Shown piece by piece: positions 468 to 35,069 of a stretch of 35,069 nucleotides of DNA. A program made the translations under genes and the position numbers. This DNA is from a virus. The first letter of the stretch is position 1. The number at the start of each line of letters is the position of its first letter. The notes under the pieces are model-generated. The model was not told where the DNA came from. It saw only the letters and a list, made by a program, of their open reading frames with translations, and did no database searches. The DNA lies in IMG/VR virus record IMGVR_UViG_3300042332_001574, positions 1 to 35,069 of that record. One strand, given 5' to 3'.

Positions 468-647
468 TCAGGCCGAAATGACCTCGCGGATGCCGCGCAG
501 GATGAGGGCCTCAACCGTCGTCCCCTGCGCCTCGGCGAGCCGAGAGAGCTGCTCCAGCTCCTCGATCGGGAGCGTGGGCCGGAGAGCGATCTCCAAGGTC
601 ACGCGGGTGGTGGTAGTGGCTTCAGCGTCGTCAGGTGTCTTGCTCAT
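468..647 (-). CDS. Small regulator, Cro-position, ribbon-helix-helix-like
   Basis: This 59-aa protein is the first leftward gene of the switch, in the place of Cro in lambdoid phages. After a short Thr/Ala-rich head it has a possible beta strand (RVTLEIAL, about residues 15-22). A helix-turn-helix-like or ribbon-helix-helix-like segment follows (residues 28-57, IEELEQLSRLAEAQGTTVEA and on). That segment matches residues 65-94 of the divergent HTH protein at 745-1152, with 18 of 30 residues identical by eye. ATG 647 is chosen; a GTG two codons upstream (653) is possible. The strand-helix-helix layout and the shared segment suggest a DNA-binding or dimerisation role. The exact fold is inference. 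Confidence 0.65.
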   Translation of the reverse strand: MSKTPDDAEATTTTRVTLEIALRPTLPIEELEQLSRLAEAQGTTVEALILRGIREVISA

Positions 648-723
648 ATTCACGATTTGATTTCCGGCGCATCAAAGATTCACATTGCGAATCCGTCAAC
701 GGAAAAAAGTTGCATATGTGAAT
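648..723. promoter_or_regulatory. Operator region between the divergent regulators
   Basis: The gap between the two divergent regulators carries three copies of an ATTCAC half-site. They are 648-653 (ATTCAC), 678-692 (ATTCACATTGCGAAT, a near-perfect palindrome) and 716-723 (ATGTGAAT, the inverted form). They are spaced roughly 30-38 bp apart across the region where both divergent promoters must lie. This is the expected layout for a lysis-lysogeny operator with several sites. The region is also more A+T-rich than its surroundings. Confidence 0.55.
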
Positions 724-744
724 TTTTCTGCGCAAGGTGCCCGC

Positions 745-1152
745 ATGACGAATTCCGAATTCCGCAGCATCCAAGAAGAATTAGGCCTGAGCGGCCGCGA
801 CCTCGCCGAAAAACTGGGTGTCGCCACTTCCTCTGTCAGCCAATGGCGCGAAAGCAGGACCGTCCCTGATTACATCGCCCGGCTCATGGCGTTCCTCAAA
901 GCCGAGAAGGACGGGCGGATCCAGATCCCGCTTACCATCCCGGAGATGATCCAACTCTCGCGCGCCGCAGAGGCCCGCGGAGTCACGGTCGAAGCCCTCC
1001 TCATCGATCTCATCCGCGGCATCATCAAGCAGCCGGTATCCTACCAGGCCGATGCAGCCAAAGCCGCCGACAAGCCCACACCGAAAGCCGCCGAACCGAT
1101 CATCTACAAGGGGCCTCAGTCGCTGACAAAACCGATGAAGGACCCGTCTTAA
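745..1152 (+). CDS. XRE-type HTH regulator, candidate prophage repressor
   Basis: This 135-aa protein has an N-terminal helix-turn-helix of the XRE/Cro-CI type at about residues 14-40 (LSGRDLAEKLGVATSSVSQW). A 30-residue segment follows at 65-94, homologous to the small divergent protein at 468-647, and the tail (95-135) is Lys/Pro/Ala-rich. It is the only rightward gene of the switch and lies opposite the early operon, so it is the likely lysogenic repressor. It lacks a LexA/UmuD-type autoprotease domain, so RecA-triggered self-cleavage is not expected; induction may instead work through the small partner. The ATG at 745 has a weak AAGGTG seven bases upstream. A strong terminator follows the stop. 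Confidence 0.75.
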   Translation: MTNSEFRSIQEELGLSGRDLAEKLGVATSSVSQWRESRTVPDYIARLMAFLKAEKDGRIQIPLTIPEMIQLSRAAEARGVTVEALLIDLIRGIIKQPVSYQADAAKAADKPTPKAAEPIIYKGPQSLTKPMKDPS

Positions 1153-1215: not shown

Positions 1216-1243
1216 TTGATAGGAACAATTGCTAGAGTACTAT
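1216..1243 (+). promoter_or_regulatory. Sigma70-like promoter of the 1281 gene, with overlapping inverted repeat
   Basis: TTGATA (1216-1221) and TACTAT (1238-1243), 16 bp apart, fit a -35/-10 pair. An inverted repeat, TGATAG (1217-1222) and CTATCA (1240-1245), covers both elements, so a repressor dimer could block the promoter. The promoter lies right after one terminator, and the single gene it serves ends at another. Confidence 0.6.
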
Positions 1244-1247
1244 CAGG

Positions 1248-1280
1248 CCGCGGAGACCCCGCGGACCAAACCAAACAAAA
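1248..1280 (+). promoter_or_regulatory. Hairpin plus ACCAAACCAA leader of the 1281 gene
   Basis: A perfect hairpin (CCGCGG 1248-1253, loop AGACC, CCGCGG 1259-1264) is followed at once by ACCAAACCAA (1265-1274), then CAAAA and the ATG. There is no Shine-Dalgarno site. The order matches the leaders at 311-341 and 32684-32710. Confidence 0.65.
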
Positions 1281-1610
1281 ATGCAACAATATATCAAAAA
1301 ACTCGGCCAACCCTCCCCCCACGACCGCATCGTCGTATCACGCCAACCATGCATCGCTGTAATTGCATGGTGCAAGCTGCGCTCCTCCGGCGATGAAGTT
1401 GGGCAGCCCCTTGGCTTTTGGGAATACCCAACCGCCGAAAAAACACTGGAAGCGCTGGATGGATTCACACCAGAACCGCAGGAACGCTTAGTCGAAGCGG
1501 TCTTTTGCCATCAGGCCATTGCCTATTCAGACGGCTATGGAGGCGCGCAGATTGGCGCGAGCGATCGCCAGTATCCGGAGTTCCCGATAATTCGATCGCT
1601 TTACAGATAG
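1281..1610 (+). CDS. Hypothetical protein, candidate lysogenic-conversion (moron) gene
   Basis: This 109-aa soluble-looking protein belongs to no family I recognise. Three cysteines are spread along it (in QPCIAV, AWCKL and VFCHQ) and a Gly/Tyr-rich stretch lies near the C terminus; no membrane segment or signal peptide is seen. It stands alone on the plus strand between the repressor and the integration module. It has its own promoter, hairpin leader and terminator, the layout that defines a moron: an autonomously transcribed cargo gene likely to be expressed from the prophage. A role in host phenotype or superinfection exclusion is inference only. The start follows the leader directly. Confidence 0.65.
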   Translation: MQQYIKKLGQPSPHDRIVVSRQPCIAVIAWCKLRSSGDEVGQPLGFWEYPTAEKTLEALDGFTPEPQERLVEAVFCHQAIAYSDGYGGAQIGASDRQYPEFPIIRSLYR

Positions 1611-1626
1611 GCCAATAAAAGCACAG

Positions 1627-1659
1627 ACCCCGCAGCGCCCAACGGCCTGCGGGGTTTTT
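1627..1659 (+). terminator. Intrinsic terminator after the 1281 gene
   Basis: ACCCCGCAG (1627-1635) pairs with CTGCGGGGT (1647-1655), and a T run (1655-1659) follows. It lies 16 bp after the stop and separates the rightward gene from the converging membrane-protein gene. Confidence 0.85.
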
Positions 1660-1699
1660 CGTTCCATGGCATCATCTTCGTGACGCCACGAAAATGGTC

Positions 1700-2398
1700 T
1701 TACCTACCAAGCCCCCTCACCGGAGGCCGCGCCGGCGGGCCCAACTCGATGTCGATGGCATCGCGGACAGCCTTCCCGTCTTCAGGATGCATGCCATGCC
1801 ATGAGCGCTGCATGATGTCGCTGCGCGCCTCCTGCCGATGCACCGGATTGGAGAGCTTCGCCGCCTTCGAGATCTCCAGCAGCAGTTCATCGCGGCGCAG
1901 ACCGCTTTGCATGGCTTTGTCCTGGACGGCCGAGGCCGTGGCTGCCGCCACCTGCTCCAGCTGCTTGTCGGCTGCGGCCTGCTCCTTTCCGGCCCAGCCA
2001 AGGAATCCCACCACGCCCCCCAGCGCCAGCATCATCGCCAGCACAAAGCAGATTCCGGACACCACCACCATCAGCACGGCCCGCACCGCTGCCCCATGCA
2101 CCAGCAGCATGATGAAGACTACCACCACGCCGATCCAGTAGACCAGATCCAGCAAGACCAGCAATCCTCCCGAGACCAATCCACCGACCGCACCCGTCTC
2201 AGCTTGCCCGGAAAACGCCACCCCACCGCTCGCCGCAAACAATCCCGCCACCAGCAGCAGCATCACATTCAGCGCCACCCCCGCACGCTCCGCAGCCCGC
2301 CACGGCTCCTTCTGCCGCTCATCCACCACATACACATACTGCGGCGGCGCAGGAGGCTGGATCCTTGGAGGCACAGGCTTTTGATGCTGAGCATGCAT
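1700..2398 (-). CDS. Integral membrane protein, function unknown
   Basis: This 232-aa protein has a Pro-rich cytoplasmic-looking head (residues 1-40). About three hydrophobic segments follow: near 42-65 (VALNVMLLLVAGLFAASGGV), 75-105 (LLVLLDLVYWIGVVVVFIML) and 110-135 (VLMVVVSGICFVLAMMLALG). A charged, Ala/Gln-rich helical tail (about 137-232) completes it. It lies 38 bp downstream of the integrase on the same strand. Membrane proteins in this position are often expressed in lysogens and act in superinfection exclusion, but nothing in the sequence fixes that role. I recognise no family motif. Confidence 0.7.
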   Translation of the reverse strand: MHAQHQKPVPPRIQPPAPPQYVYVVDERQKEPWRAAERAGVALNVMLLLVAGLFAASGGVAFSGQAETGAVGGLVSGGLLVLLDLVYWIGVVVVFIMLLVHGAAVRAVLMVVVSGICFVLAMMLALGGVVGFLGWAGKEQAAADKQLEQVAAATASAVQDKAMQSGLRRDELLLEISKAAKLSNPVHRQEARSDIMQRSWHGMHPEDGKAVRDAIDIELGPPARPPVRGLGR

Positions 2399-30327: not shown

Positions 30328-30503
30328 AGCGCACCCCCTTTCTTCGCTGCCCTGATGCGTTCCCATCGGGCGTCCGCCGCGCACTTCGGCGAGCAATACT
30401 GCCGCTTTTTCCAAGTGGACATGGATTCGTCGCTCGTTCGCTTGAACGTCGCTCCGCACTTGGCGTTTTCGCACACCTTCGGTGCCTTCCTCCAGTCGCT
30501 CAT
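30324..30503 (-). CDS. Small zinc-ribbon-like protein
   Basis: This 59-aa basic protein has four cysteines, C11 and C16 (VCENAKC) and C37 and C41 (YCSPKC), spaced to bind zinc. It resembles other small phage proteins likely to contact DNA, RNA or host factors. Both ends overlap neighbours by four bases (ATGA before, GTGA after). Confidence 0.75.
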   Translation of the reverse strand: MSDWRKAPKVCENAKCGATFKRTSDESMSTWKKRQYCSPKCAADARWERIRAAKKGGAL

Positions 30504-30898
30504 GCTCGCCTCCTTTCCGCCACCGTGCCCGCCCACTGCGCTCCGGTGTCGTAGCAGTCCCGGGGGGCCTTCGATGTCCGACGGCCATTCAGCGGTCGCG
30601 ACTGCAGCCCGGCTGCCTTCACGACCTCGAGCCACTTCTTCATCGGCACCGTCAGCAGCTTCTTCGGGACCCGGAGCGTCGCGCAGATCCGGTCCAGCGT
30701 CGCGCCCTGCGGCACCCTGTTCCCGTTCTCGATGTCCTTGAGTGTGCATTCCGAGATCTCCGCCAGCCGCGCGAAATCCCGCTTCGTCATCGGGGCCTTC
30801 TCTGGCCCCTTCGACCAGCACAGCCGGAGCCAACCGATCCGATCGCCGACTGTCCGTGCGGCCGCCGGCGGGTACATGCCTTTGTGGTCGACGTTCAT
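30500..30898 (-). CDS. XRE-family HTH protein of the early operon
   Basis: This 132-aa protein has an XRE-type helix-turn-helix (about 38-78, KRDFARLAEISECTLKDIEN). A region containing PKKLLTVPMKKWLEVVKAAG follows, then a basic tail that may be disordered. It is a second early regulator, distinct from the switch pair, and may time late transcription or replication. ATG 30898 overlaps the upstream stop by ATGA. Confidence 0.75.
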   Translation of the reverse strand: MNVDHKGMYPPAAARTVGDRIGWLRLCWSKGPEKAPMTKRDFARLAEISECTLKDIENGNRVPQGATLDRICATLRVPKKLLTVPMKKWLEVVKAAGLQSRPLNGRRTSKAPRDCYDTGAQWAGTVAERRRA

Positions 30899-31251
30899 TC
30901 GGCACCCCCTTCCCGCACCAAGAACTTCATGGCCGCCATATATGTCACCACCGTCTTCTGGCCACATTCAATGCAGTGGATCTCCTCCGCTTCACCCCCC
31001 GCCACGGACGCGCCCCGTGGCCACCACCCCTTGAACAGATTCGCTCCGCAGTAGTGGCAGCATGGCTTTTCAGTGACATCCCCCGGAGCGCTCGCCAGCA
31101 GCGGCTGGGCTACCGGGAACAGCTGCTTTATCAGCTCGAGATACCGCTGCCGCGCATCATCGAGCGGGAACGTGTTCTCGATCTCCATCCGCTCTGCCGC
31201 CAAACCGGGCGAAACCATGCGGACGATCACTTGCAGCTTCGCCACTTTCAT
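30895..31251 (-). CDS. Hypothetical protein with a CxxC...CxxC zinc site
   Basis: This 118-aa protein has an alpha/beta N-terminal half (1-60) and a C-terminal zinc ribbon with C65-x2-C68 (CHYCG) and C93-x2-C96 (CIECG). It lies directly after the sliding clamp with an ATGA overlap. A DNA- or clamp-associated role is possible but not shown; I recognise no family. Confidence 0.65.
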   Translation of the reverse strand: MKVAKLQVIVRMVSPGLAAERMEIENTFPLDDARQRYLELIKQLFPVAQPLLASAPGDVTEKPCCHYCGANLFKGWWPRGASVAGGEAEEIHCIECGQKTVVTYMAAMKFLVREGGAE

Positions 31252-32666
31252 TCCGCACCCCCCTCTACCCTCATCGGCATCAGCACGTACTGGAACGTCG
31301 CATCGCACGCCTCCGTCACCGGCAGCGACGACTTCCAGACCAGTGGCCCATTGGTTCTCGCATGCCCGATGTCCAGCGTCCCTTGACCAGTACCCGACAG
31401 GATCGGCACGTAGTCCGGATTGAGCGCGACCCGGCAGACCTTCTCCACCTTGGTCTCCTCCGAGATCATCCGGACCGACTCCCGCCACATCCCCCGGTCG
31501 GCCTCATTCCCCTCCACCCTCACAATCCGGCCCTCGAGCTGAAGCTGCACCGAGTTGTTCTTTCCCCCGGCCAGCACTTCCGCGCGGCCGACGGCCTCCA
31601 CCAATTTTTCGACGTCCAGCACGACATCCTCGCCGCTCGGCCGCGGCACCACCTTCTGCCATGCGGGATACTCCCCGTCGACCACCTTGCCCCAGACCCT
31701 GAATCCTTCCTCGCAGAACCACATCGCAACAACCCGCGGAGGTTTCCCACCCGGCTCCGGAACCGTCACCAGGCCGAAGCCCGCGGCCGTCTTCTCATTC
31801 CCGCTCAGCGTCGCCAGGAGGAATGCCACCAGGGCATTCGGAGCGATGACCTTGGCGCCTTCATCGGACTTCCAGAAACCCAGCAGATCGCCAAACCCTA
31901 CCCAGCTACCAGCGAGCGCCTGCACAGTCGTGGCGATCGTTGCCAACCGCTTCCCATCAGTCGCCACCATCCGCAGATCCATGACCTCATCGCGGCCCGG
32001 CCCACCAGAGCTTTTCATCTCAAAGCAGACCCCATTGAGCACGTACCGCGTCGAGTCCGCCGACGCGGCTCCGTACACCGCCTTCAGCATCTTCTTCAGC
32101 GCCCGACTCGGGAAATAGACCCCCTGCCCATCCACCTTCGGCATGGGCGGCATATCCTCGATGGAGAGGACGCACAGCTCAGCAAACCAGTTGTCGCTCC
32201 CGATCCACAGGCGCTTGCCTCGTTCATGGATGATCTTGATCTTCTCACCCGCACGGTCCAGCAGCTTCCCAAAGGCGGCCGCCTCGACAGCCACACCGCC
32301 ACTGCCAGCCAACTGGACATCGTCGTCCTCCGCCACCTTCTGCTCAGCATGCACATCCAGAGATGTCGCATGCATGCTCAGGCCGAACACATCCCACCGG
32401 AGCCCAACGCACCGCAGGATGGGGAGCGAGTTGTTCTTCCCCGCCGCTTTGCCGACCCGCTGGAATGCGGCGCGCAGCAATGCCGTGGGGCCACTCCAGC
32501 TCAGCACATCATCGGACTGCCCAGCCTCTTCCGCCGCCGCCTTCACCGCCCGCTTCCGCTTCGGCTTTTCCGGCTCTGCGGACGCCTCGACAGGTTCCGC
32601 CGCATCCACTTGGGCCGCTGCAGCGATTTCCGCCTTCCGTGCTTCATCATCAGTGATCTCAGTCAT
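31248..32666 (-). CDS. dnaN: DNA polymerase III beta sliding clamp (phage-encoded)
   Basis: This 472-aa protein is a ring clamp that tethers polymerase to DNA. The three-domain clamp body runs from about residue 58 to the end. Signatures are NNSLPILRCVGLRW, DSTRYVLNGVCFEM, MVATDGKRLATIAT and the C-terminal YVLMPMRV, close to the YVVMPMRL that ends E. coli DnaN. A 57-residue N-terminal extension (acidic, then EKPKRKRAVK) is unusual, and five residues (EGGAE) follow the usual end. Phages of this size rarely encode a clamp. It begins a second early transcript segment behind a hairpin/ACCAAACCAA leader. Confidence 0.9.
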   Translation of the reverse strand: MTEITDDEARKAEIAAAAQVDAAEPVEASAEPEKPKRKRAVKAAAEEAGQSDDVLSWSGPTALLRAAFQRVGKAAGKNNSLPILRCVGLRWDVFGLSMHATSLDVHAEQKVAEDDDVQLAGSGGVAVEAAAFGKLLDRAGEKIKIIHERGKRLWIGSDNWFAELCVLSIEDMPPMPKVDGQGVYFPSRALKKMLKAVYGAASADSTRYVLNGVCFEMKSSGGPGRDEVMDLRMVATDGKRLATIATTVQALAGSWVGFGDLLGFWKSDEGAKVIAPNALVAFLLATLSGNEKTAAGFGLVTVPEPGGKPPRVVAMWFCEEGFRVWGKVVDGEYPAWQKVVPRPSGEDVVLDVEKLVEAVGRAEVLAGGKNNSVQLQLEGRIVRVEGNEADRGMWRESVRMISEETKVEKVCRVALNPDYVPILSGTGQGTLDIGHARTNGPLVWKSSLPVTEACDATFQYVLMPMRVEGGAE

Positions 32667-32683
32667 ATCGTCGTTTGTTTTCG

Positions 32684-32710
32684 TTGGTTTGGTGGGCTCG
32701 GATTGAGCCC
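32684..32710 (-). promoter_or_regulatory. Hairpin plus ACCAAACCAA leader of the clamp gene
   Basis: On the minus strand a perfect hairpin (GGGCTC 32710-32705, loop AATCC, GAGCCC 32699-32694) runs directly into ACCAAACCAA (32693-32684), then an A-rich tract and the ATG at 32666. The architecture matches 311-341 and 1248-1280. Confidence 0.65.
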
Positions 32711-32716
32711 GGAAAA

Positions 32717-33559
32717 TCAAAGCCCCTGCACACTCCGCAGGCCCTCCCCGGCCCGGGCGCCCGCAGCCCGCATCAGCCGCTTCCTCCTCATCTGGATCGC
32801 TTGCCTCGAGACCCCGAGCGCCCCGGCCAGTTCCGCATTGTTCCGCCATGGGCTCCCCGCGCTGCCCAGAAATGTGTGGATCAGCGCGGCCAGCCGGGCC
32901 GAAATCTCCCGCGGGTCGACCACCGCCGCATCCAGTTCCATCCGCTCGATCTGCAGATGCCTCCGCGGATCCCGCGAGAACGACCCCTTTGGCCGCTCGC
33001 CGGCCGGAATGATCCTCCGCACCCGCGCCTCGCCCCATGCGAGGACCGCCGCCCCGCCAGCATCCCGCACCACCACCCCCCGGGCCCGCCACTGCACATG
33101 CCGACCGTCCCGCAGCCACACCTCCCCAGGCCCGCGCATGTCGACCCACTGCGCATCGTCATCGATCGGCACCCGCGCCAAGAACTTCCATCCCCACCGT
33201 TCCTGCAGCAGACCGGTCCGCAGGTACTCGATCACCCGCAGCGCCTCGGCCCGCTCCGCCAGCGTCGGATCCGCCGTCGAGCCGGCCGACACCGCCAGCT
33301 TCAGCGCGGCCTCATCGGCTGCTGCCCAGTCCACCGTAATGGCACCGACCGAATTCCCCTGGCGTAAATCCCCCACCACAGCCTGCTGCGCCTCATACCG
33401 CCGAGCCCGCTGCCAGCGGCGATGCAGTTCCGGCAGCCTCTCCAGCGTCTCCTCCGGCACCCCGCCAGCCAGAGCCTCCTCGATGACATCCCATCGATCG
33501 CCCGCGGCCCGGCGGCCGTCGACGTATTCGCAGATGGCATCGATCTGCTCCTTCGTCAT
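32717..33559 (-). CDS. Hypothetical early protein with C-terminal HTH
   Basis: This 280-aa protein has a helical N-terminal region (1-60), a central alpha/beta part with a WVDMRGPGEVWLRDGRHVQW stretch, and a C-terminal helix-turn-helix (about 238-265, NAELAGALGVSRQAIQMRRK). The HTH suggests DNA binding; just upstream of the clamp and replication genes it could be an origin-binding or early regulatory protein. Function is not fixed by sequence. It overlaps the upstream gene by ATGA. Confidence 0.65.
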   Translation of the reverse strand: MTKEQIDAICEYVDGRRAAGDRWDVIEEALAGGVPEETLERLPELHRRWQRARRYEAQQAVVGDLRQGNSVGAITVDWAAADEAALKLAVSAGSTADPTLAERAEALRVIEYLRTGLLQERWGWKFLARVPIDDDAQWVDMRGPGEVWLRDGRHVQWRARGVVVRDAGGAAVLAWGEARVRRIIPAGERPKGSFSRDPRRHLQIERMELDAAVVDPREISARLAALIHTFLGSAGSPWRNNAELAGALGVSRQAIQMRRKRLMRAAGARAGEGLRSVQGL

Positions 33560-33947: not shown

Positions 33948-34241
33948 TCAGTCCTCCGGATACTTGGCCCGCAGCCGCGCCAACTCGGCCCGCTCTTTCA
34001 TCTCGGCCTTTTCCTCAGCGGTCACGATCCCAAGAGCCTTCCGCGTCTCGTCATCCCATTTGAGACCCGCCTTCGCGAACAGTTCCGAGACTACCACGTC
34101 CTCGCGCCGCACGGCAGTATGGGACGTTGCCCGCTCAAGTATCGCGCCAACCAGATGGTTCACGGATATTGCAGGCTTATCGTCAGCCAGTGCAGACGCA
34201 CGCTCAAAAACATAGAGCACCGAGATCGAGAATGCATTCAT
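33948..34241 (-). CDS. Hypothetical early protein
   Basis: This 97-aa protein is predicted to be almost all helical, with a hydrophobic head (MNAFSISVLYVFERASALAD) and a charged Ala/Glu/Lys/Arg tail. I recognise no family. Two bases separate its stop from the next start, and its own start overlaps the upstream stop by ATGA. Confidence 0.65.
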   Translation of the reverse strand: MNAFSISVLYVFERASALADDKPAISVNHLVGAILERATSHTAVRREDVVVSELFAKAGLKWDDETRKALGIVTAEEKAEMKERAELARLRAKYPED

Positions 34242-34606
34242 CGCATCCCCTCCCCGTAGTGATAGGCACCCTCAGCGGCCAGGAAGATCCCGCCCAGCCA
34301 CATCCCGCCCCACACGATTGCGGCGACGAGCAGCCACAGCAGGACGCAGACCCATAAAGGAATCCGGTCGCATCGCTCCGCCTGCAGCGGGAGATCCAGC
34401 AGGCCAGACTCCGCGCAGCGCAGCGCTTGGGCCACAGTGGCCGCGCCCGGGATCCGGGCCGTGACGGCCCCCTTGCCCAGGACGATCCCGCCATCGGGCT
34501 CCTGACTCAGCACGGTCACCCCGTGCTGCGCCATCCGATCCGCGAGGACCCACTTCTGCCACCGATGCAGCTCCTGCAGCTGCGCATCATTGATGTTCCG
34601 GCTCAT
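34238..34606 (-). CDS. Small early protein with one membrane segment
   Basis: This 122-aa protein has a soluble head (1-80) and one C-terminal transmembrane segment (about 85-112, with LWVCVLLWLLVAAIVWGG). A tail-anchored topology is likely. ATG 34606 is chosen because it overlaps the preceding small gene by ATGA. Function unknown; adjacent to another small membrane protein. Confidence 0.65.
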   Translation of the reverse strand: MSRNINDAQLQELHRWQKWVLADRMAQHGVTVLSQEPDGGIVLGKGAVTARIPGAATVAQALRCAESGLLDLPLQAERCDRIPLWVCVLLWLLVAAIVWGGMWLGGIFLAAEGAYHYGEGMR

Positions 34607-34767
34607 GATCCGCAGCAGAGTTGGCCGACGATCTCGGCGATTTTCCAGATTCCACACAGCGCCGACCACAGGCACCACAGCAGGAGCATCAGGCAGCCCA
34701 CCCGCTCCTTCCGCGACCTCGGAGTCAGCCAGCCATCATCCACTTCAGGATCGTACTCGTCGTTCAT
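34603..34767 (-). CDS. 54-aa membrane microprotein
   Basis: This short frame has an acidic head (MNDEYDPEVDDGWLTPRSRK) and then one hydrophobic segment (about 24-40, GCLMLLLWCLWSALCGIW). A short tail follows, ending CCGS. Both junctions are ATGA overlaps, with the stop of the gene before (34764-34766) and the start of the gene after (34606). That matches the tight coupling of the surrounding operon and supports it as a real gene. It may be a small membrane regulator. Confidence 0.65.
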   Translation of the reverse strand: MNDEYDPEVDDGWLTPRSRKERVGCLMLLLWCLWSALCGIWKIAEIVGQLCCGS

Positions 34768-35069
34768 GAGTCGAATCGATTGGGGTTTTGGTCCTGCAGA
34801 CCGACCGGGTCGCCCAGCCAGTTCCGCCCATCGGGGCCGTAAATGTCATCTCCTCCTGCCAGCGCCATCCCCGGCAGCATCGGGCCGAGGTCGGCCGCGG
34901 CCCATGCCGGCAGCCGCTCATCGCGCTCCGCATTCCGGATCGGGAGGTACTCCGCGTCCGCCTCGAGCAGCTGCTCGACGAGACGCTCCCGGTATCCAGC
35001 ATCGCAGCAGCAGATCAGCGACGCCACCTCCACCCGGATCTCCACTGGCAGGGCACCGATCCGGTCCCA
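34764..35069 (-). CDS. Hypothetical early protein, C-terminal part (starts across the join at 310)
   Basis: This is the downstream part of the 162-aa protein described at 1-310. On the circle its start is at position 310 and the first 127 bases overlap the terminal repeat. The C-terminal part is acidic and Pro/Gly-rich (LGPMLPGMALAGGDDIYGPD) and ends in NPNRFDS. Read alone it would seem to begin at GTG 35045. Confidence 0.7.
   Translation of the reverse strand, partial: WDRIGALPVEIRVEVASLICCCDAGYRERLVEQLLEADAEYLPIRNAERDERLPAWAAADLGPMLPGMALAGGDDIYGPDGRNWLGDPVGLQDQNPNRFDS
34943..35069. repeat. Terminal direct repeat, right copy (circular join)
   Basis: This is the exact copy of bases 1-127; see the left copy. 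Confidence 0.95.

Follow-up and report, generated by a model that had tools for sequence, protein, structure and literature searches.

We describe a phage switch region in which two divergently transcribed genes encode proteins sharing a ribbon-helix-helix (RHH) module, fused to an XRE helix-turn-helix domain in the putative repressor P0002 and free-standing in the small opposing protein P0001. We propose a microprotein switch in which a detached copy of the repressor's RHH domain opens the lytic operon and would break the repressor dimer by domain exchange. The CI and Cro positions of Verrucomicrobiota phages as a whole would be built on one RHH module, XRE-fused or free; we put the probability of this reading at roughly 40%. 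A repressor with a small partner at a phage switch is known, and what is new here is that the pair is built on one RHH module.

The DNA analysed (the window) is a single virus record, 35,069 bases long, and a 127-base direct repeat at its ends (positions 1-127 and 34943-35069) marks it as probably a complete circular map. A second phage of the clade, G397, has an end repeat that is likewise 127 bases in length; the repeats are probably assembly overlaps of circular genomes. In a relative, G001 (IMGVR_UViG_3300043399_000977, 36,802 bases, collinear with the window), the segment corresponding to 34237-35069 adjoins that corresponding to 1-466 and thus bridges the window ends. Replication, packaging and structural genes run leftward. 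Judged by its gene content the phage is temperate, since an integrase is encoded together with a terminase and a head protease. It is probably a phage of Verrucomicrobiota; among named phages, just one has a similar integrase (30% identity over 76% of the query), and it infects Akkermansia. Elsewhere on the map, a 633-aa open reading frame (31251-33149, minus strand) carries all three domains of the DNA polymerase III beta subunit (sliding clamp), and this phage-coded clamp has a long additional N-terminal part. The features of the switch region are collected in Table 1.

Table 1. Coordinates of the switch region in the window.
Feature	Position	Strand	Remark
P0001, 59 aa, stand-alone RHH-fold protein	468..647	-	Cro position, first gene leftward (lytic)
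P0001 residues 28-57, shared segment (helices A and B joined by a turn)	477..566	-	
Divergent intergenic region, 97 bp, presumed operators and promoters	648..744	.	
ATTCAC copy 1	648..653	+	abuts P0001 start codon
ATTCAC copy 2	678..683	+	also in alignment with relative
ATTCAC copy 3	718..723	-	22-27 bp before P0002 start
P0002, 135 aa: XRE helix-turn-helix, RHH and tail, no S24 match	745..1152	+	
XRE domain of P0002, residues 1-55	745..909	+	
Recognition-helix region of P0002, residues 27-36	823..852	+	
P0002 residues 58-95, RHH-fold segment (a strand, then helices A and B)	916..1029	+	alignment, model, HHalign
Shared segment in P0002, residues 65-94	937..1026	+	

P0002 is very probably the immunity repressor. 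Its AlphaFold model, built from a two-sequence alignment, begins with the four helices of the XRE domain, from which a short extended linker leads to two further helices (residues 65-78 and 82-90); the mean pLDDT is 70, and the tail is poorly predicted. In the structure comparison, residues 1-56 matched XRE domains, with Aca2 at Z 8.7 and an rmsd of 1.0 over 56 residues. The order of XRE and then RHH is that of XRE-RHH-S24 phage repressors in the alignment, and HHalign matched the RHH segments of the clade's repressors to those of other repressors at 94.9%. The Pfam scan gave no S24 peptidase row for P0002, which ends at residue 135. RHH domains form dimers with an intermolecular ribbon; with S24 absent and no second dimerisation domain in sight in P0002, its RHH domain is the likely dimer module. 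The C-terminal tail (1036-1149, plus strand) contains a stretch, PTPKAAEPIIYKGPQSL, that is identical in G001, whereas the remaining protein has diverged.

P0001 has the orientation of the replication and structural genes, of which it is the first past the divergent region, and P0002 is encoded in the opposite one. In functional terms P0001 thus belongs with Cro, its gene opening the lytic direction and diverging from that of the repressor. In its AlphaFold model (two-sequence alignment, mean pLDDT 76), an extended stretch of low confidence (block pLDDT 62-73 for the strand) is followed by helices at residues 28-40 and 45-58. Most of the 29 rows matched in the structure comparison are RHH proteins, among them VapB12, Arc, CopG, TacA and ParG, although the superposition is modest, with Z 5.1 at best (VapB12, rmsd 1.5 over 43 residues; an Arc mutant, 1.8 over 42; CopG at Z 4.7). 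P0001 stays under the curated Pfam RHH cut-offs (RHH_5, 15.1 against 26 bits; Antitox_RHH, 13.2 against 27.2). Neither the model nor the Pfam scan contains a helix-turn-helix, which agrees with the statement of the initial annotation that P0001 has no XRE domain and consists of little besides the shared segment. In HHalign, the small proteins of the window's clade matched the RHH segments of other repressors at 90% (E 1.6e-6), and the latter segments matched generic RHH_1 at 88% (E 3e-6), against reversed controls of at most 6.3%. Compared directly with generic RHH_1, the clade's small proteins match only weakly (3.3%), and the RHH assignment of P0001 therefore rests on the profile chain together with the model; on these we predict the fold with high confidence. 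Since the clade's small proteins lie nearer to the repressor RHH segments than to the small RHH proteins of other phages (E 7.6e-5), the profiles suggest that the small protein is a detached repressor domain. A toxin-antitoxin role for P0001 was dropped, as no toxin-like gene appeared among its neighbours in the open reading frame and Pfam results.

The open reading frames and the gapless alignment described in the initial annotation were reproduced: the two shared segments are identical at 18 of 30 positions, where 2,000 shuffles of P0001 reached 11 at best and 34 other XRE-RHH segments 10. A single BLASTP comparison of P0001 with P0002 gave 19/32 at E 1e-8. The shared stretch, first described as a homologous segment, is on the models and profiles the two helices of an RHH domain. 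Its ungapped BLOSUM score is 81; the maxima elsewhere were 50 in 5,000 shuffles, 42 for 17 generic RHH_1 domains taken from the same phylum and 41 for the 34 other repressor segments. Scores of this size do occur between generic RHH_1 domains of one subfamily (28% of 136 pairs reach at least 81). The helix pairs at 477-566 and 937-1026 also match computer-designed helical toroids (5byo, 4yxz), a warning that very regular, idealised helices can match by composition.

The likeness belongs to the clade and not to the single pair. Against the repressors of the window, G001 and G397, P0001 scores 81, 72 (17/30) and 48, the G001 small protein 61, 48 and 38, and the G397 small protein 58, 65 and 47. 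Seven of these nine small-by-large pairs have 12-18 identities in 30, and the other two have 9 and 10. Because the cross-comparisons are all raised within the clade, the copy is older than the split of the three phages and has not been renewed as a match in each of them. Since scores across phages equal or exceed those of own pairs, we rejected both gene conversion and tight co-evolution inside the individual phages, and we found no pair-specific co-variation. Among 23 hand-chosen pairs, own partners exceeded random ones with p 0.028 when the window was included and 0.22 without it; the small proteins for these pair comparisons, and for the charge and profile comparisons, were chosen by eye, and the strict test described below is the only unbiased one. 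On these comparisons, the 18/30 identity is special to the window's clade.

Comparison with G001 sets the locus apart from the rest of the genome. Fourteen of the 16 window proteins searched have a match in G001, most of them 82-99% identical, and elsewhere G001 is about 90% identical to the window; the corresponding values are 68.9% for P0002 and 56.5% (over 46 residues) for P0001. The open reading frames at 1281 and 1700 had no match in G001. A second helix-turn-helix protein (30500-30967, minus strand) has, at 36.9%, the lowest identity among the proteins common to both phages, although the region around it is about 90% identical, and may be a further immunity or replication-control gene. 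The intergenic repeats change as well, from three copies of ATTCAC in the window to three of TTGGAAT in G001 and three CTCTGTAA-like copies in G397, and in each phage a copy of its own repeat lies about 21-27 bases ahead of the repressor start. The three ATTCAC copies proposed as operators in the initial annotation are real, but their number is not significant by itself, since 31 of 200 shuffles of the window region give three copies of some 6-mer, and we rejected the triplet as proof in its own right. Shuffles reached the repeat counts in 5/200 cases for G001 and 8/200 for G397; five word lengths were used per phage, so that none of these counts is a strict probability.

Within residues 20-36, P0002 differs from the G001 repressor P0004 only by A27K, T28P, S29P and Q33R. 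The XRE domain of P0002 aligns number for number with the phage 434 repressor over this range, and in the latter positions 27, 28, 29 and 33 touch operator bases. P0002 would prefer ATTCAC-type and P0004 ATTCCAAAT-type sites. The strand LEIALRP of the small protein is identical in the window and G001 although the repeats differ, and is therefore not the part that follows the repeat. The proposal that the locus is a switch is strengthened by these comparisons: it has diverged from a close relative, the recognition helix and the repeats have changed together, and the small gene is the first lytic one. Judged from these sequences, this is what the immunity region of a temperate phage should look like after a specificity switch. 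In G001, a Bro-N (antirepressor-type) gene (L003:1834-2721, minus strand) begins where the small RHH gene ends, and its product could be the antirepressor of that phage, a point against antirepression by the small protein; no Bro-N gene was seen at the corresponding place in the window.

We infer dimerisation through the RHH domain, the identity of the operators, the heterodimer and the direction of its effect, and combine them as follows. P0002 would be the maintenance (CI-like) repressor, with an XRE domain that would read the short repeats, particular to each phage, between the divergent genes and an RHH segment that would serve as its dimerisation module. Because P0002 has no S24 peptidase domain, it would not be open to the usual inactivation by self-cleavage. 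P0001, as a free copy of the RHH module expressed from the lytic promoter, would replace one repressor chain in the RHH dimer, and the resulting one-headed complex would grip the operators poorly and favour lysis, much as SinI acts on SinR. We give heterodimer antirepression by P0001 odds approaching, but short of, even. Exchange into the repressor dimer would be its simplest action, since P0001 is nothing more than a non-basic dimer domain copied from the repressor and would be expressed from the opposing promoter. Titration is a reasonable hypothesis for the window's clade. Against a matching specific to each pair, P0001 scores almost as high with the G001 repressor (72) as with its own (81), and the G001 small protein scores higher with the window repressor (61) than with its own partner (48).

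The SinI/SinR trick belongs to biofilm control in Bacillus. As in our pair, the repressor joins an XRE domain to dimerisation helices at its C-terminus, and a small free protein is matched to these helices; the sizes are also alike: SinR and SinI of Bacillus subtilis are reported as 113 and 57 aa (PMC5864091), against 135 and 59 aa for P0002 and P0001. The SinR-SinI heterodimer surface is described as built from residues conserved between both proteins (PMC3163267). In contrast to our predicted RHH domains with a strand, SinI and SinR associate through helical hooks in a four-helix bundle, and unlike theirs the genes of P0001 and P0002 are divergent and lie in a phage. With E allowed up to 1, the Pfam scans returned no SinI row for either P0001 or P0002, from a library that may lack that model. 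SinI and SinR structures do not occur among the 29 rows listed for P0001 in the structure comparison, a listing that does not bear on their absence.

The arrangement extends beyond the window. As a query against viral contigs, P0001 alone had no match, and a two-row alignment of small proteins matched only G001. The single match of a genome contig scan (L004) was an unrelated helix-turn-helix protein, and the one match among 387 genomes of the phylum with the two-row alignment (L010) was judged by eye to be no relative. A three-row alignment matched 47 of the 387 genomes at E up to 0.01, chiefly via its XRE part. Relatives found through the terminase added two more switch types, one in G397 and one in G393 (identical in G392); in both, an XRE-RHH protein faces a small RHH-like one encoded divergently. 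The switch was matched in only 3 of the 12 terminase relatives examined, most of the others being fragments; G400 (36 kb) matched neither the switch nor the integrase. A search with the G393 repressor led to the Akkermansia phages Chambord and Chantilly, which are listed among 13 induced prophages (PMC10197239). Their repressors, annotated as transcriptional repressors, likewise have XRE followed by an RHH segment; unlike P0002 they carry Peptidase_S24 (P0009 in Chambord, P0010 in Chantilly), and unlike P0001 their divergent small proteins do not resemble the RHH segments of their own repressors (scores 17 and 22). With P0009 as query and E up to 1e-6, matches were obtained in 20 of 288 Verrucomicrobiota genomes, frequently more than one in the same genome. 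Up to eight matches occur in single genomes (L110-L168), whose owners seem to be rich polylysogens, unless the repressor has been reused. On this survey, XRE-RHH repressors, often with an S24 peptidase, are widespread in Verrucomicrobiota prophages.

For the strict test we took 59 of these P0009-matched loci and 7 others, which gave 56 RHH segments, forming 37 groups at 75% identity, and used a profile of repressor RHH segments only to score 130 divergent open reading frames against 685 others. Nine divergent frames and none of the others exceeded 6 bits, the best control reaching 4.6. A divergent frame above this best control was present in at least 7 of the 37 groups, and by construction in none of 2,000 control draws; above 2 bits, the count was 12 groups, with about one expected and at most five in 2,000 draws. 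P0001 scored best of all with 18.1, falling to 14.7 without its own repressor segment and to 11.8 with four window-related rows left out of the profile. No divergent small RHH above the best control was found in 30 of the 37 groups, which include Chambord, Chantilly and G001, whose small protein scores only 1.1. Pfam scans at E up to 1 gave RHH-type rows as eight family hits among 23 small proteins and none among 23 random control frames. The initial annotation had contrasted this switch with phages in which CI and Cro share only the helix-turn-helix fold; RHH at both positions is better seen as a wider theme of Verrucomicrobiota phages, in which the two domains are mostly not specially alike, and the small RHH protein's function would therefore generally need no sequence matching.

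Several loci vary the theme. In L143, an RHH-S24 protein without XRE (1230-1886, plus strand) faces a divergent protein (954-1151, minus strand) whose Pfam RHH_1 score of 25.6 bits exceeds the cut-off of 20.5, so that this switch is possibly wholly RHH-based. The repressors of L123 and L137 lack the RHH segment in the alignment, and the divergent small frame there is helix-turn-helix-like (by eye). The eight loci of the L115 group have a 108-aa frame with a likely membrane stretch instead of the small RHH protein. In L150 (436-765, minus strand) and L151 (1446-1775, plus strand), a second RHH-like frame scoring 7.5 bits comes after the small RHH gene and shares its orientation.

The wider occurrence bears on the strongest alternative, which we regard as nearly as likely as the mixed dimer: P0001 may act as a Cro-like RHH homodimer that binds the intergenic DNA and shuts the P0002 promoter, its homology to the repressor reflecting common descent only. 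P22 Arc is a phage RHH repressor of this kind, and P0001 has the fold of the Arc/CopG/VapB family. A stand-alone RHH protein at the Cro position recurs in the distant groups counted above without special likeness to the repressor, and 16 of 20 other small RHH proteins are neutral or positive in charge; because most of them differ from the repressor's RHH and are neutral or basic, Cro-like DNA binding is suggested as the general role. The clade of the window departs from this pattern, its small proteins P0001, P0003 and P0006 being acidic (net charges -4, -3 and -4). Unlike Arc, CopG and VapB, P0001 lies below the Pfam cut-offs and seems to be without the usual DNA-contact features. Among generic RHH_1 domains of the same phylum, 15 of 17 have [NST]RS at the start of helix B and 14 of 16 readable ones a basic residue on the strand face. 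The [NST]RS motif is missing in the three clade small proteins compared and in P0002; with the strand register uncertain, P0001 has TEAR on the strand face and TTVEA at helix B, P0002 has RQP and VTVEA, and a Glu lies in the strand of two of these three small proteins. That the strand stays constant while the repeats change likewise argues against Cro-like binding, and the mixed-dimer idea fits the acidic small protein and its invariant strand.

P0001 might instead bind P0002 and yet not block it, acting as a co-repressor or modulator that shifts, for instance, which operators are occupied. We consider this unlikely. The CI:Mor systems of TP901-1 and phi13 are, like ours, phage lysis-lysogeny switches in which a small protein binds the repressor, and corepressor is a keyword of the report (PMC11149083); one repeat of the window also abuts the start codon of the small gene. 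In TP901-1, however, Mor contacts the N-terminal domain of CI and not a common dimer domain, and the abstract describes no shared RHH segment (PMC11149083). That the likeness is merely one of two ordinary RHH helix pairs of idealised composition, without functional meaning, is very improbable: the toroid matches and the high scores within one RHH_1 subfamily would allow it, whereas the gap between 81 and the generic and repressor maxima, and the cross-likeness throughout the clade, speak against it.

The smORFs of TF-smORF prophage modules are described as having no homologues or predictable domains (Silpe et al. 2023), whereas P0001 is a copy of a repressor domain. In the portions of open papers in PMC covered by our search, no XRE-RHH phage repressor with a small RHH partner was found.

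If the mixed dimer is true, the locus would be a minimal lysis-lysogeny switch with one domain on both sides, a phage counterpart of SinI/SinR. Even without a mixed dimer, the RHH modules in both switch proteins give a handle on the immunity of Verrucomicrobiota phages. Their host group has been little studied; it includes Akkermansia, for which inducible prophages carrying repressors of this type are available in culture. The window and G001, a phage pair differing mainly in the immunity region, amount to a natural immunity swap.
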